Virus record (IMG/VR): IMGVR_UViG_3300046519_000093
Location: 1-46,457 of that record
From: a virus
DNA length: 46,457 bases
Direction: 5' to 3' (one strand)
In this document: piece after piece, positions 16,253 through 25,012 of the stretch
How positions within the stretch are numbered: the stretch's first letter is position 1
How the letters are laid out: every line of letters starts with the position of its first letter
Made by a program: the position numbers and the translations under genes
Notes under the pieces: generated by a model
Database searches by the model: none
Told to the model about the DNA's origin: nothing
What the model saw: only the letters and a program-made list of their open reading frames with translations

Positions 16253-16281
16253 ACTATAGGAACAATGTTCCTACTTTGCAA
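16253..16281 (-). promoter_or_regulatory. Leftward promoter with palindrome TAGGAAC-N3-GTTCCTA in its spacer
   Basis: On the minus strand -35 TTGCAA (16276-16281), a 17-base spacer and -10 TATAGT (16253-16258) form a good sigma70-type promoter. The palindrome TAGGAAC-AAT-GTTCCTA (16257-16273) fills most of the spacer and reaches the -10. It overlaps the integrase stop codon. It should drive the seven to ten small genes to its left, under control of a regulator different from that of the RGTCYCT sites. Confidence 0.65.
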
Positions 16282-17443
16282 TGGCCTGAGAAGAATAATT
16301 TTCAGATCGCCCAAACTTCGCCGCCGCCTTGTCGCCCGACGAATCCGCCTCGTTCGGGATGTATCGGCCATAAACCCGGCTGATCATCAGGAACGACGTG
16401 TGCCCCATCTGCTTAGCGACCCACATCGGATGCTCGCCCGCGCTCAGCATCATGGATGCATAGGTGTGCCGCGTCTGGTATGGGTTGCGGTAGCGCACGC
16501 CTGCCTTCCTGATTGCCGGCCCCCAGAACGACTTCCTCAACTCCTGGTCGCCGGCGAATGGCCGGTTGTGCCGTGGGTCATGGAAGACCGCCCCGCCTTG
16601 CGTCTGCGTGTGCTCGCGCTGGGCCTTCAGCGCCTCGAACGACATGGGCAACAGGCGCACGCTCCGCACCCCCGCCGCCGTTTTCGGCGTCTCCGCCTCG
16701 CTCGCTGCCGCCGTCAGCCCCCGCGACACCCTCACTTCCCCTCGATGCCAATCAATGTCGGCCCACTCCAGTGCGACCAGTTCTGACGTGCGAAGGCCGG
16801 TCCAGAAGGCGAACTGCAGCAAGTTCCGGTATTGGCCGGTGGCCGCTGCCAGGATTGCGCGCTGCTCTTCAGGCGAGAAAGGATCAATCTCATCCTCGGT
16901 GCGCGGCTTCTCCTTGACCGAATACGTCCATCCGGCCAGCGGATTGACCTCGATCAGCTCGTCATCGACCGCGTCCGACAGCGCCGAGCGCAAACAGGAT
17001 TGGACGTTGGCCAGCCGCTTGTTGGTGGCGCTCATCTTGGCCATGGCCTCGCGCACCGCCTTCCGGCTGATCGATGCCAATTGCAGGCTTCCCAGCGCCG
17101 GAACCAGCACGCCGTTGATTATCTTGCGGTACCCATCGATGGTGGACGCCTTCAGCGCCTGGGCCTTGCGATCAAGCCACGCCTCCAGGTACTGCGCCAA
17201 AGGGATCTGCCCGGACTGGCTGCCCGACCTGGTGGCACGCTTCGACCCCGGAAACGCCGCCGCATAGTCGAAGGTGCCGTGATAGATGGCCAGGTCGACC
17301 CCGGCCTTTTTCTGCTCGGCCCTGCGCAAGTTCGCCGGCGTCGGCTCAATCGGCAGGCGCTCCCGGCACTGCTGGCCGTCGAGCATGAAGCTGATCTCGA
17401 TACTGCTTTTCGATGCCGCACGCACCCCGCGCTTCGCAGCCAT
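16271..17443 (-). CDS. int: Site-specific tyrosine recombinase (phage integrase)
   Basis: This 390-residue protein has an N-terminal arm-binding region (IEISFMLDGQQCRERLPIEP), a core-binding SAM-like domain (~residues 80-180) and a catalytic domain. Catalytic residues are Arg218 (TGLRTSEL), His-Arg in QTRHTY (Arg325/His326), His348 (GHTS) and the nucleophile Tyr358 in RVYGRYI. The ATG at 17443 is preceded by CAGGGGTGG; a longer in-frame start exists at 17539. It lies inside the leftward operon rather than at a phage/host border. Besides integration it could resolve dimers if the phage is kept as a plasmid. Confidence 0.92.
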   Translation of the reverse strand: MAAKRGVRAASKSSIEISFMLDGQQCRERLPIEPTPANLRRAEQKKAGVDLAIYHGTFDYAAAFPGSKRATRSGSQSGQIPLAQYLEAWLDRKAQALKASTIDGYRKIINGVLVPALGSLQLASISRKAVREAMAKMSATNKRLANVQSCLRSALSDAVDDELIEVNPLAGWTYSVKEKPRTEDEIDPFSPEEQRAILAAATGQYRNLLQFAFWTGLRTSELVALEWADIDWHRGEVRVSRGLTAAASEAETPKTAAGVRSVRLLPMSFEALKAQREHTQTQGGAVFHDPRHNRPFAGDQELRKSFWGPAIRKAGVRYRNPYQTRHTYASMMLSAGEHPMWVAKQMGHTSFLMISRVYGRYIPNEADSSGDKAAAKFGRSENYSSQAIAK

Positions 17444-17514
17444 ACGCCACCCCTGACGATTCGTTACATTGGCCGACAGTTTAGACCTGTGCCGCGGGCG
17501 GCGGCAGCAGGCGG

Positions 17515-17898
17515 TTATTCGGTTTTGTCTGGAAACCACTCGGTGTCGTACTCGAACTGGGTTACCCGCTCAATTTCGATACTTGGCAGCGATCGGCGGA
17601 AGGTTTCGGTGCCGTATGGCTTCTTCACGTAATCGCCGGCTTCCTCCATGAACGATTCCTTGTAGACGCTGAGGAAGTGATCGGCCGCCTTCTCATATTG
17701 ATCCTCGCGGTAATTTTCTAGGCACAGACCGCCACAACAGACTCGCCAGATCACTCGCTTAGGCTGCGCCTCGGCCGCCTTGATCTTTTCGCCCATCAGC
17801 TCGACAGCCCGGCGCATCTGGTCGAGGCTGAGCTGAGCGATCCAGTTCGGCGTGCTTACGTTCATTACGTGGCCGTGGTCGCACTTTATTTCTGCCAT
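17515..17898 (-). CDS. Hypothetical protein with Cys/His residues
   Basis: This 127-residue protein begins MAEIKCDHGHVMNVS and contains VCCGGLCLENYRED. The Cys/His pairs suggest metal binding, but no known zinc-finger pattern fits well. RBS AGGAATCGAC selects the ATG at 17898 over one eight codons upstream. It precedes the integrase gene in the same direction. Function unknown. Confidence 0.6.
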   Translation of the reverse strand: MAEIKCDHGHVMNVSTPNWIAQLSLDQMRRAVELMGEKIKAAEAQPKRVIWRVCCGGLCLENYREDQYEKAADHFLSVYKESFMEEAGDYVKKPYGTETFRRSLPSIEIERVTQFEYDTEWFPDKTE

Positions 17899-18125: not shown

Positions 18126-18307
18126 AGTAGGTGCGCTCCAGCTTCGAGCATGCCGTCGCGGTCTTCGCGCAGTTCATCGCGCTCCTTGGTCAGCGCCTCG
18201 ATCTTGCGATGGATGTACCGGGCGATTGTCTCGCCTGGTCGCATGTCGGCTGCTGGCGTGCCTCTTAGCACGGCTTCCCATTCGTGGACGGTCAGTTGTT
18301 CGCTCAT
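18122..18307 (-). CDS. Small helical protein (61 aa)
   Basis: This 61-residue protein has a C-terminal coiled coil rich in Glu, Arg and Lys (KIEALTKERDELRED). Its ATG overlaps the stop of the WPTP-repeat frame (ATGA at 18304-18307). That arrangement supports translation of the WPTP frame as well as of this gene. Function unknown. Confidence 0.65.
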   Translation of the reverse strand: MSEQLTVHEWEAVLRGTPAADMRPGETIARYIHRKIEALTKERDELREDRDGMLEAGAHLL

Positions 18308-19326
18308 GCTGCATCACTCCTGGGCTGACAAGATGGCGAATGCTGCTGTTGCCACTCTTGGAACTTGTCCATTGCCAAGGGCTTTAATTCGGTCCACCCG
18401 ATGGGCCACCCCATCAGCCACTCGACCCACTCCGGGTTCAATTGGCCACCCTTTCCACCCTCCGGGGTGACGGCGGTCGGCAGGCGAACTTGCTGTCCCT
18501 TTGATTTGCGATCGGCCAGAGTCTGGTTTGACCACTTGTTGGCATCGGATGCATTCGGCGTCGGCCATGATCTGGCCGAAACCGCTTCGATCAGCGTTCC
18601 GCCCTCGCGCCCCTTTCGCGGAGTTATCCTTCCGCCCTTCGTCGCCAGCGTTGCCGTTGGCGTTGGCCACTGTTTCGCTGCGCTGCTCAGTCCCCATCCT
18701 GCATTCTTGCTGCTGCCCGGCTGATTGTGGTTGCCGTGTACTGTCGGCGTCGGCCAGAGCATGACCTCCGCAGACAGCTTCGGCTCTCCACGACTGTTCC
18801 ATTTCCCCGCCTGCCGACTCACCGCATCGTCCGCGACAATCGTTTGCCACAATCCAGATGCGATCGCGCTGATGGGGCGCTCCAGTGTCGGATGCTGAAA
18901 CAATGCACCACTGCGCGTCATACCCCATTTCGGCAAGATCACCGAGGACCACTGCAAGTCCTCTTCCCACAAGCAGAGGTGAGTTTTCCACGAAGACGAA
19001 CTGAGGTCGTACCTCGCCGACGATTCGCGCCATTTCACTCCAGAGGCCAGAACGGGCGCCATCGATGCCGACGCCATTCCCGGCAGCTGATATGTCCTGA
19101 CACGGGAATCCGCCCGAAACCACGTCAACAAGGCCTCGCCATGGTCTTCCGTCAAAACTGCACACGTCAGACCAAATTGGGAAAGTTTCGAGGGCTCCAT
19201 CGTTTTGTCGTTGCGCCAGAACTTGTGCTGCGTAGGCATCACGCTCAACGGCGCAGACGGTGCGCCACCCGAGCAGGTGGCCTCCGAGTATTCCGCCACC
19301 AGCGCCTGCGAAAAGAGCCAACTCAT
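18304..19326 (-). CDS. WPTP-repeat protein overlapping the methyltransferase gene end to end
   Basis: A 340-residue frame covers almost exactly the same bases as the methyltransferase gene but in another minus-strand frame. It is not random in look. SSWKT (111-115), SVILPKWGMTRSG, three WPTP motifs (191, 220, 254) and LNPEWVEWLMGWPIGWT (296-312) recall, from memory, a tryptophan-rich protein seen as a separate gene near phage methyltransferases. Its ATG overlaps the upstream gene's stop (ATGA), and its own stop overlaps the downstream ATG (ATGA), as the operon's other genes do. It may be an overprinted real gene or a conserved shadow of the methyltransferase. The function is not known. Confidence 0.55.
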   Translation of the reverse strand: MSWLFSQALVAEYSEATCSGGAPSAPLSVMPTQHKFWRNDKTMEPSKLSQFGLTCAVLTEDHGEALLTWFRADSRVRTYQLPGMASASMAPVLASGVKWRESSARYDLSSSSWKTHLCLWEEDLQWSSVILPKWGMTRSGALFQHPTLERPISAIASGLWQTIVADDAVSRQAGKWNSRGEPKLSAEVMLWPTPTVHGNHNQPGSSKNAGWGLSSAAKQWPTPTATLATKGGRITPRKGREGGTLIEAVSARSWPTPNASDANKWSNQTLADRKSKGQQVRLPTAVTPEGGKGGQLNPEWVEWLMGWPIGWTELKPLAMDKFQEWQQQHSPSCQPRSDAA

Positions 19327-19330
19327 TCAT
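18314..19330 (-). CDS. DNA (cytosine-5) methyltransferase
   Basis: This 338-residue protein should transfer a methyl group from S-adenosylmethionine to cytosine in DNA, probably protecting phage DNA from host restriction. Visible motifs are FAGAGG (7-12, AdoMet binding), GGFPCQ with catalytic Cys77, FVENS (113-117), QRDR (154-157), and a C-terminal motif IX/X region ending KALGNGQVP. The target-recognition region is short and contains a repeated Ala-Asp-Ala pattern (LADAD, VANAN, MADAE) that coincides with the WPTP repeats of the overlapping frame. The start overlaps the upstream gene by eight bases. Confidence 0.88.
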   Translation of the reverse strand: MNELALFAGAGGGILGGHLLGWRTVCAVERDAYAAQVLAQRQNDGALETFPIWSDVCSFDGRPWRGLVDVVSGGFPCQDISAAGNGVGIDGARSGLWSEMARIVGEVRPQFVFVENSPLLVGRGLAVVLGDLAEMGYDAQWCIVSASDTGAPHQRDRIWIVANDCRGRCGESAGGEMEQSWRAEAVCGGHALADADSTRQPQSAGQQQECRMGTEQRSETVANANGNAGDEGRKDNSAKGARGRNADRSGFGQIMADAECIRCQQVVKPDSGRSQIKGTASSPADRRHPGGWKGWPIEPGVGRVADGVAHRVDRIKALGNGQVPRVATAAFAILSAQE

Positions 19331-19481
19331 GGGTGCTCCAAACAGATGGATCGGCCAGAGAATCCAGCCGGACGAACTTCGCCCCGCCAGTCAGGTGATG
19401 CAGAATCGCGTATTGACTCGACGTTCGGGCCAGCGCGTAGGTGCGGCCGGTCGGGCGGTGCGTATAGGTGGTGCCTTCCAT
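19323..19481 (-). CDS. Small hypothetical protein (52 aa)
   Basis: This 52-residue protein begins MEGTTYTHRPTGRTYALART and ends VWSTHE. RBS AGGAG lies eight bases before the ATG. Its stop at 19323-19325 overlaps the start of the WPTP-repeat frame, and the methyltransferase ATG at 19330 lies just inside its 3' end. Function unknown. Confidence 0.6.
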   Translation of the reverse strand: MEGTTYTHRPTGRTYALARTSSQYAILHHLTGGAKFVRLDSLADPSVWSTHE

Positions 19482-23107: not shown

Positions 23108-23251
23108 TTAAATCGGTTGGTTGTCCCACTGGCGCTCAATTTTCAGCGCCTCGTCTTCGTACTCTTTGCGCTGCTCGCCCTGGAACTGCTCAGGGTCGAA
23201 CGCGCCTACCGTCATCCAGTCGAGCTGGGCGGTCAGTCGTGGTGTGTTCAT
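23108..23251 (-). CDS. Small acidic protein (47 aa)
   Basis: This 47-residue protein begins MNTPRLTAQLDWMTVGAFDP and ends IERQWDNQPI. RBS GAGG lies five bases before the ATG. It is placed between the coiled-coil gene and the annealing ATPase gene with short gaps on each side. Function unknown. Confidence 0.55.
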   Translation of the reverse strand: MNTPRLTAQLDWMTVGAFDPEQFQGEQRKEYEDEALKIERQWDNQPI

Positions 23252-23258
23252 TGGCGCC

Positions 23259-24638
23259 TCAGTAGGTCAGGGCTATGGCTGGGATCTGGCCGCGAATGAT
23301 TGCGGCTATGACTGCCTTGGCTTCTGTTTCGTCAAGGAAGCGCGCGACCTTTCCATCTGCAGCTATGTTGACTTGCGTCATGGCTTCCAGAGCCGTCCGG
23401 TTGACCTTTCCCCGGTGCGCCGTATCGGCTGCTCGGGCGTCCTGCTGGCGGACGATCTCGGCGGCGGCATCGTCTGCGCGCTTCTTCTCATCGATGCGCG
23501 CCTGCTCGACTGCCTGCTTTTGCCGGGCCGCCGCCTCTTTGCGCTCACGGTCGGCGCGTTGTTCGGCTTCTTCCTGATCAGCCTTGGCTTGCTTCGCCAC
23601 TCGCTCGGCGTCCTCTGCCTGCTGCTTCAGCTGCTTTTCGCGCTGCTCAGCCTGATCCCGCTCACGTTTGGCGGCCTCGTCGGCGTCCCGCTGCGCCTGC
23701 TCGGCCGCTTCCCTTCTGATCCGCTCGTCATGCTCACGCTGGGCGCGTGCTTCGTCGTCAGCGCGGCGCTGGGCCAGTTCCGCCTGATCAGCCTCGTACT
23801 GCTCCTGGTCGACCAGGGCCTTTCGCAGAATCACCAGGGCGGCAGCCTTTGCCCGGTGCGCGTCAGCCTCGAACTCTTCCAGCTCCTGGTTGATCACAAG
23901 GCTGTCCAGATCCTGAATCTTGGCGCCGATCAGTGCGGCACTCATGCCGGCGGTGTCGGTGTTTTCGATGTGCTCGATCACGGCCTTGTGCGCATCGATT
24001 CGGGCATCCTCTGCGGCCTGCCATTCGTTCAGCGGGCGACGGACCTGCTCCTGAAGCGCTTCCAGGGTTTCGCGCATCCGCTTACGCTCGGCGTCGATCA
24101 GCTTCGGGACTTCCTTCAGCTCTGCGACCAGTTTTTTGCCGGCGTCATCCAGGGCCACTCTCGACTTCGCGACGTTGTGGGCAATCGAGGCGATGGCGGC
24201 GCGACCCTTTGCGGTGCTGGTGTCTGGAACGAAAGCCAGAACCTCGTCGCGGATCTTTTGCAGCCAAGGCTCCAGGCCATTCGGCGCGCTATAGACAGCC
24301 AGCGCGGTTTCCTTTGGCGGCACGGTGGCCAGCTCAGTCATTGCGTTCATGTTCACCCCTTGTACGTCGAAAGTCCCGTGCAAGGGACTGTTAGATGCAT
24401 TTCCATTCAAGCCAAAGAAGTCGCCGATCTTCTCGACTGCGGCCGAAACACGCTTGGCGCTTGCCTTGTCTTCCTCGGCCTGCCGTCGCCTTCTGTCATC
24501 AAGGCGCTGCGAGTGCTCCGGGTTTGCCGCGTCGTAGTCGTGGAACAGGTCGGTCGGTGCTGCCTTGGGCCGCCCGTAGTCATCGAATCTCCGATCCCAT
24601 TCCCGGGCCTGGGCGCTGTCTGCGTAGCTGGTGCTCAT
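23259..24638 (-). CDS. Long coiled-coil protein with possible internal start at 24350
   Basis: The full frame gives 459 residues. Residues ~97-280 are mixed helical, and ~280-410 form a long charged coiled coil rich in Arg, Glu, Gln and Ala. The shorter 363-residue form would start at the ATG at 24350, with RBS AGGGGTG and an operator palindrome 22 bases upstream. Related phage proteins, as I recall them, begin near that point. The upstream ~96 residues may be a separate early protein fused in frame; its ATG at 24638 overlaps the previous stop. It lies beside recombination genes; the function is not established. Confidence 0.72.
   Translation of the reverse strand: MSTSYADSAQAREWDRRFDDYGRPKAAPTDLFHDYDAANPEHSQRLDDRRRRQAEEDKASAKRVSAAVEKIGDFFGLNGNASNSPLHGTFDVQGVNMNAMTELATVPPKETALAVYSAPNGLEPWLQKIRDEVLAFVPDTSTAKGRAAIASIAHNVAKSRVALDDAGKKLVAELKEVPKLIDAERKRMRETLEALQEQVRRPLNEWQAAEDARIDAHKAVIEHIENTDTAGMSAALIGAKIQDLDSLVINQELEEFEADAHRAKAAALVILRKALVDQEQYEADQAELAQRRADDEARAQREHDERIRREAAEQAQRDADEAAKRERDQAEQREKQLKQQAEDAERVAKQAKADQEEAEQRADRERKEAAARQKQAVEQARIDEKKRADDAAAEIVRQQDARAADTAHRGKVNRTALEAMTQVNIAADGKVARFLDETEAKAVIAAIIRGQIPAIALTY
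24372..24389. promoter_or_regulatory. Dispersed operator inside the coiled-coil gene, before an internal start
   Basis: AGTCCCG-TGCA-AGGGACT is a near-perfect copy of the palindrome. On the minus strand it reads AGTCCCT-TGCA-CGGGACT, with TCTAAC just before it, then AGGGGTG and ATG at 24350. Spacing to the start is like that of the intergenic copies. Confidence 0.65.
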
Positions 24639-25012
24639 GGCTCAGCCCTCAGCAGCTGGTCGCCGATGATGCGCAGGCGGTTGCGGATGCGGGCGCCTTG
24701 GGCGTTTATCTCTTTGCGCTCATCGAGCAGGATCGCCATCGATCGGTAGATGTCGTCCTCGTCTAATTCCGTGCCGTCCCATGCGTGGCACTCATCAACC
24801 GCATGGAGCCAGCCTCGCCAAACGATGCTGCAATCAGGGTCGTCGGTCACCTCGCCGCTCATGTAGCGGTTGCGGAAGGGCTTCAGGTCGACGAATGTTT
24901 CGGCGTCGGCATGCTGTCCGCGGATTGCCTGAGCGTTCTTTCGCCATGCCTCCCGATGCCGGGAATATGCCTTGGCCAGTTCGCGCAACTTGTCATCAGT
25001 CGTCTGCGTCAT
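24635..25012 (-). CDS. Hypothetical protein (125 aa)
   Basis: This 125-residue protein begins MTQTTDDKLRELAKAYSRHR. Its acidic middle (GTELDEDDIYRSMAILLDER) is followed by a basic, helical C-terminal end (RIRNRLRIIGDQLL). No family was recognised. The ATG at 25012 and the stop at 24635 both use ATGA overlaps; the longer in-frame start at 25078 is less likely. Confidence 0.65.
   Translation of the reverse strand: MTQTTDDKLRELAKAYSRHREAWRKNAQAIRGQHADAETFVDLKPFRNRYMSGEVTDDPDCSIVWRGWLHAVDECHAWDGTELDEDDIYRSMAILLDERKEINAQGARIRNRLRIIGDQLLRAEP

Follow-up and report, generated by a model that had tools for sequence, protein, structure and literature searches.

Two phage reading frames overlapping end to end probably encode the two subunits of one DNA (cytosine-5) methyltransferase

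The window analyzed here is the whole of a 46-kb IMG/VR virus record (46,457 nucleotides). It carries an integrase gene at 16271-17539, and the named phages that match it are mostly Pseudomonas phages, with a match that covers only ~4% of the query. A sequence-only reading of this DNA had described two same-strand frames of 338 and 340 codons that share about 1 kb, and both the sizes and the coordinates of these frames hold (Table 1). The first frame, termed M, opens with an ATG at 19330 and stops at 18314 on the minus strand, while the second frame, termed W, opens with an ATG at 19326 and stops at 18304, with W containing the whole span of M except for the first four bases of M. The ATGA junctions previously ascribed to both ends of W are also present. 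Specifically, the W start (ATGA, 19326-19323) shares bases with the stop of a 52-aa ORF (19481-19323), and the W stop shares bases with the ATG of the following ORF (18307-18304). Note that the M start (19330-19327) likewise makes an ATGA, in this case with another ORF (19533-19327). No restriction-enzyme family was found in the eight neighbouring ORFs that were scanned.

Table 1. Coordinates of the M and W frames, their motifs and their shared start region in the window.
Feature	Position	Strand	Description
M frame	18314..19330	(-)	338 aa; C5-cytosine methyltransferase catalytic polypeptide, alpha-like; motifs I-VIII and X
W frame, +1 relative to M	18304..19326	(-)	340 aa; WPTP / motif-IX polypeptide, beta-like; phrog_1008
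GGAG	19336..19339	(-)	Shine-Dalgarno-like core before both starts, probably serving both
ATGAATG	19324..19330	(-)	M start 19330-19328, W start 19326-19324, 4 nt apart
M Pro-Cys-Gln	19097..19105	(-)	Catalytic motif IV; residues 76-78, invariant in alignment of relatives
M Glu-Asn-Ser	18980..18988	(-)	Motif VI (ENV-like); residues 115-117, invariant in alignment of relatives
M KALGNGQVPRVA	18350..18385	(-)	Motif X, from alignment; AlphaFold helices 306-318, 323-336
W SSWKT	18982..18996	(-)	+1 reading of the M motif VI codons
W WPTP repeat 1	18745..18756	(-)	M reads LADAD
W WPTP repeat 2	18658..18669	(-)	M reads ANAN
W WPTP repeat 3	18556..18567	(-)	M reads ADAE
W LNPEWVEWLMGWPIGWT	18391..18441	(-)	Motif-IX-like, most constrained part of W; M reads EPGVGRVADGVAHRVDR

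The M frame matches the Pfam DNA_methylase family (PF00145) at 1.5e-32 and phrog_363 at 2e-64, and holds motifs I-VIII and X of this enzyme class without motif IX. The AlphaFold model of M is confident over the catalytic domain, has low confidence or disorder over residues 168-305, and ends in two C-terminal helices at motif X. This model matches M.HaeIII and M.HhaI across ~170 catalytic residues, and a profile of M also matches these two enzymes in their catalytic part only. The predicted disorder and the catalytic-only profile match indicate that M is without a recognisable target-recognition domain or motif IX. A standard monomeric enzyme is rejected, as no single frame of the window locus holds motifs I-X.

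The motifs that had been picked out in the W frame (SSWKT, three WPTP repeats and LNPEWVEWLMGWPIGWT) are all present, and the WPTP repeats do coincide with the Ala-Asp-Ala type repeats of M. W is a member of phrog_1008 (2.5e-27), a profile that is labelled DNA methyltransferase; since W is without any catalytic motif, this label suits a subunit and not an enzyme. Searches of W against Pfam and against PDB chains gave no match, and the AlphaFold model of W alone is not folded (mean pLDDT of 53). The LNPEWVEWLMGWPIGWT-type motif sits directly before motif X in those relatives that have both motifs in W. An hhalign profile comparison of this motif with the standard motif IX of single-chain enzymes was not significant, and we equate the two from the look of the motif, its position and precedent.

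Relatives of the locus were gathered in two ways, by W and separately by M, and at every locus of either set both frames are in the same register. When IMG/VR relatives are selected using M only, 80 of 80 have a W frame that stays open across 96% or more of the M span, and in bacterial genomes 80 of 80 loci, which were picked by the W profile, carry both frames in the same register. The control consisted of 22 further C5 methyltransferases, taken from genomes in the same family as G003 (the Pseudomonas trivialis genome that carries locus L177). Their mean in the frame corresponding to W is 4.1 stops per 100 codons, and stops interrupt this frame in every one of the 22. The W profile matched just two C5 loci of the control genomes, L312, which is of the type described here, and L315, which is of a distant W-bearing type. 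Synonymous-codon permutation of the window M leaves W open in ~1.6% of shuffles, and the same permutation of 141 relatives gives an expectation of 4.05 stops per gene and a mean open chance of 1.5%, with no stops observed, and a chance ORF is rejected for W. As the 141-relative set was filtered for the W start, the unfiltered 80 of 80 from the M-picked set is the cleaner number.

We also looked among the relatives for loci that keep the methyltransferase and carry stops in W, which the sequence-only reading had held to count against W as a gene. These are absent as a pattern, with one single-stop case, L018 (4001-4975), in which one stop breaks W after codon 119 and M is intact. The mention in that reading of stand-alone W proteins is not supported, as W lies on a methyltransferase gene at every fetched locus with enough sequence. 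Such entries may be W frames for which the M frame of the same DNA was left unannotated, as for example in Pseudomonas phage phPA-G. In a prophage of E. coli PCP07014 (L174, 1475-2277) there is one stop in each frame, a few bases apart (near 1863-1869), and the methyltransferase is listed by RefSeq as a pseudogene with an internal stop.

When the gene starts of the relatives are compared, NTGAATG is found in 132 of 141, with ATG, GTG or TTG as the M start and the W ATG four bases on. A Shine-Dalgarno-like core lies 3-18 nt 5' of the M start in 124 of these 141 relatives. Wherever the second codon of M specifies Asn, the relatives use AAT (217 of 217), as compared to 548 AAC and 217 AAT codons for Asn elsewhere in M. 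The M-picked set gives the same picture, with AAT at codon 2 in 67 of 67 cases versus 75 of 229 elsewhere. An AAC codon at this position would destroy the ATG of W, which indicates that AAT at M codon 2 preserves the W start. The conservation of NTGAATG, and of AAT against codon preference, is the strongest indication in the sequences that this ATG is used to translate W. In Bacillota relatives the W start lies later.

The substitution rates of both frames in aligned homologues, a check that the earlier reading had proposed, reveal selection in M and also in W. Each difference was scored for what it changes in M and in W, and the +1 reading of adjacent genes at the same loci served as the control (omega of 0.88/0.82). 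In these pairwise comparisons, where the sequence pairs are not phylogenetically independent and omega is consequently given without a probability, the catalytic (N-terminal) part has an omega of 0.60/0.44 for W versus 0.23/0.17 for M, the middle part 0.62/0.63 for W versus 0.81/0.82 for M, the last 48 codons 0.36/0.36 for W versus 0.49/0.49 for M, and the IX-like motif 0.23/0.19 for W versus 0.68/0.57 for M, while at motif X it is M that is more constrained (0.35/0.33 versus 0.44/0.42 for W). Purifying selection acts on W and peaks at the IX-like motif, a stretch over which M is almost unconstrained. The leading frame alternates, with M leading over motifs I-VIII, W over the target region and motif IX, and M again over motif X, and this alternation matches the motif order of one C5 methyltransferase. 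Over the WPTP/IX part M is approximately a passive shadow of W, and W is the less constrained of the two across the catalytic part, with only moderate constraint in its N-terminal half. The claim that there are two real genes on the same DNA is borne out by the conserved openness, the selection in both frames and the conserved W start codon.

The distribution of motifs IX and X among the relatives also bears on how M and W are related. In 243 of 289 locus entries, a number that includes repeats of one contig, the +1 frame holds the IX-like motif and the M ORF holds motif X. A different arrangement occurs in L221, L239, L342 and L383, where M runs no further than motif VIII and the W frame carries motif IX and then motif X. 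In a tree of the M catalytic part, each of these four adjoins a different common-type relative (with uneven support, 0.34 to 0.96). By eye, L163 and L168 also have an M that ends after VIII and a motif X that follows IX in W, and the W C-terminus of these two loci matches the methyltransferase profile phrog_116 (3.9e-8 and 2.7e-7, respectively) in a region downstream of the part of this profile that is matched by M. The movement of a conserved motif X between two polypeptides is a strong argument that M and W act as one enzyme.

Several loci have other arrangements. L163 (Streptomyces phage Sebastisaurus) and L168 (Gordonia phage Upyo) are annotated as two adjacent genes, both called DNA methylase, the first of which is the M that ends after VIII and the second the W frame with IX and X. 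In L142/L364, L207, L226 and L349 the M frame is interrupted after VIII and before X; W is uninterrupted there and X can still be read in a separate ORF, and the simple two-subunit model leaves these M stops unexplained. L109 (3919-4911) and L413 (2310-3242) keep the IX-like motif in frame with the catalytic part and have X out of that frame, as a single-base shift would produce; this arrangement is either a natural fusion or a sequence error. In Paenibacillus polymyxa plasmid pAP1 (L172, 1153-2220) a second IX-like copy, LNPAWVECLMGFPLGWT, is present in a short ORF that directly follows the W ORF in the same frame and is still within the M ORF. Finally, L262-L289, which are mostly P2-like prophages of the Citrobacter family, contain a distant methyltransferase type (MTAYYNEIDP...), most of which have a +1 frame with an IX-like motif; L276, L280 and L284 gave no IX match.

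An M frame that is without the target domain and motif IX, and a W frame that has them, indicate that M and W complete each other as parts of a single enzyme. As judged from the sequences, the locus most likely codes for one heterodimeric DNA (cytosine-5) methyltransferase with two subunits written in two frames, in which W has target recognition and motif IX. M would supply the AdoMet-binding and catalytic motifs I-VIII plus motif X, and W would supply the target-recognition region (the WPTP stretch) and the motif IX that is absent from M. Translation would initiate at two starts within NTGAATG, the first for M and the second, four bases on, for W, and one ribosome-binding site would probably serve both, keeping the subunits near a fixed ratio. 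The enzyme would most likely mark the DNA of the temperate phage itself, and possibly that of the lysogen, against host restriction. The comparison of relatives shows that both frames are conserved and selected, that the W start codon is conserved, that the motifs are divided and that motif X has been relocated repeatedly; synthesis of both polypeptides, their association, their methylation of DNA and the reading of the target by W are inferred.

The earlier suggestion of overprinting stands piecewise, in that each frame is shadow-like over a part of its length. The version in which W is an unrelated protein born inside a complete methyltransferase probably does not stand, because M is without the target-recognition domain and motif IX and W carries them, sometimes along with motif X. 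A more far-reaching proposal, which as a whole we regard as tentative and rather doubtful, is that end-to-end dual coding of heterodimers, with starts 4 nt apart, characterises a large class of C5 methyltransferases in phages and prophages, that motif X moved between the frames several times, and that the N-terminal half of W over the catalytic domain was overprinted de novo and has a function of its own, such as pairing with M or tuning its activity.

Other explanations of W were weighed against the heterodimer. W could be made and have a separate job, such as anti-restriction or regulation, that is unrelated to the methyltransferase, and the constraint in its N-terminal half (0.60/0.44), which matches no known domain, is compatible with this. 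We nevertheless consider a separate job unlikely, as it is M that is without the target-recognition domain and motif IX, W has an IX-like motif where one is expected and motif X in some lineages, no W was found without M among the loci examined, and the precedent is a subunit. Similarly unlikely is +1 ribosomal frameshifting after motif VIII that joins the frames into one chain, with I-VIII from M and the target region and IX from W. Such a shift would give a complete enzyme in L221, L239, L342, L383, L163 and L168, where M stops soon after VIII and W runs through IX and X, and L109 and L413 do join M to IX in one frame; however, motif X is in M in the window and in most relatives, where the shifted chain would be without X, and W has its own conserved start codon beside that of M. 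Very improbable is a W that is only a shadow, with M alone translated and its amino acids and codon bias keeping W open and similar, for although M catalytic motifs do force parts of W (as with SSWKT), GC-rich genes have fewer stops in the +1 frame and most annotators list one frame only, similarity between close relatives is higher in W than in M (83% versus 72% for L004), the 4.05 expected stops are not seen, W has an omega of about 0.2 at motif IX versus 0.82-0.88 in controls, its ATG is kept against codon preference, ordinary C5 methyltransferases do not keep the frame, and motif X is within W itself in L221, L239, L342 and L383.

The heterodimer reading can be compared with two known enzymes, M.AquI, which recognises CYCGRG, and M.EcoHK31I. 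Lee, Kam and Shaw (1995) are said to have found the small-subunit frame of M.EcoHK31I inside the large-subunit gene in another frame, with a 176-aa beta reportedly lying within a 309-aa alpha. The second polypeptide of the window locus is likewise read from another frame of the same gene; unlike in M.EcoHK31I, W matches M in length and 4 nt separate the two starts. C5 methyltransferases are mostly monomeric with M.AquI and M.EcoHK31I as exceptions, M.AquI being split into I-VIII and IX-X, and M.EcoHK31I having a smaller polypeptide that holds motif IX only and a large one that has I-VIII and X, with the target-recognition domain assigned to alpha (PMC3404938). M.EcoHK31I (YGGCCR) is described as a two-polypeptide C5 methyltransferase by Lee, Kam and Shaw (1995), as cited in PMC3404938. 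The window M resembles M.EcoHK31I in having I-VIII and X without IX, and at nearly all loci the second polypeptide has the IX-like motif, whose profile match to standard IX is not significant; this likeness is one of layout. Unlike the M.EcoHK31I alpha assignment, target recognition is here placed in W by selection and predicted disorder. A search for a relative of M.EcoHK31I in 392 Citrobacter-family genomes found P2-like prophage copies and copies of the type described here, and EcoHK31I was not recognised among them.

As with M.AquI, the catalytic motifs and motif IX are on separate polypeptides, and an AquI-like division (I-VIII / IX-X) is seen in L163, L168, L221, L239, L342 and L383. The window differs from M.AquI in that motif X stays in M and the frames overlap end to end. 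Thus, with the EcoHK31I layout in the window and the AquI layout in some relatives, both layouts exist within one family. Single-chain phage C5 methyltransferases (phrog_116 and phrog_363, with the M.HhaI and M.HaeIII fold) have the same catalytic part, in contrast to which no frame here holds I-X.

The overlapping form is present in phages and prophages of Pseudomonadota, Bacillota, Actinomycetota, cyanobacteria and spirochaetes as well as several MAG phyla, and a scan of its spread with patterns that included WVEWLMGW gave at least 600 matches. Two-polypeptide C5 methyltransferases have been treated as rare exceptions (PMC3404938), and yet in phages the overlapping form is widespread. No described phage class of overlapping C5 methyltransferases was found in the literature searched, which took in few subscription papers, and within that literature the end-to-end overlap, the starts 4 nt apart, the wide spread and the relocation of motif X are new. 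One of the two genes is usually unannotated at these loci, with most database records listing one frame only; in Paenibacillus phage Shelly the second frame was annotated by its authors as an internal gene. A phage methyltransferase cloned from one frame would probably yield an inactive protein. The family is also a system for studying the long-term sharing of DNA by two functional frames and the transfer of a conserved motif from one subunit to the other.

Elsewhere in the window, long ORFs at 23121-24749 (+) and 23259-24638 (-) overlap on opposite strands. The minus-strand ORF matches phrog_1376 (2.8e-93), which indicates that the plus-strand ORF may be a shadow.
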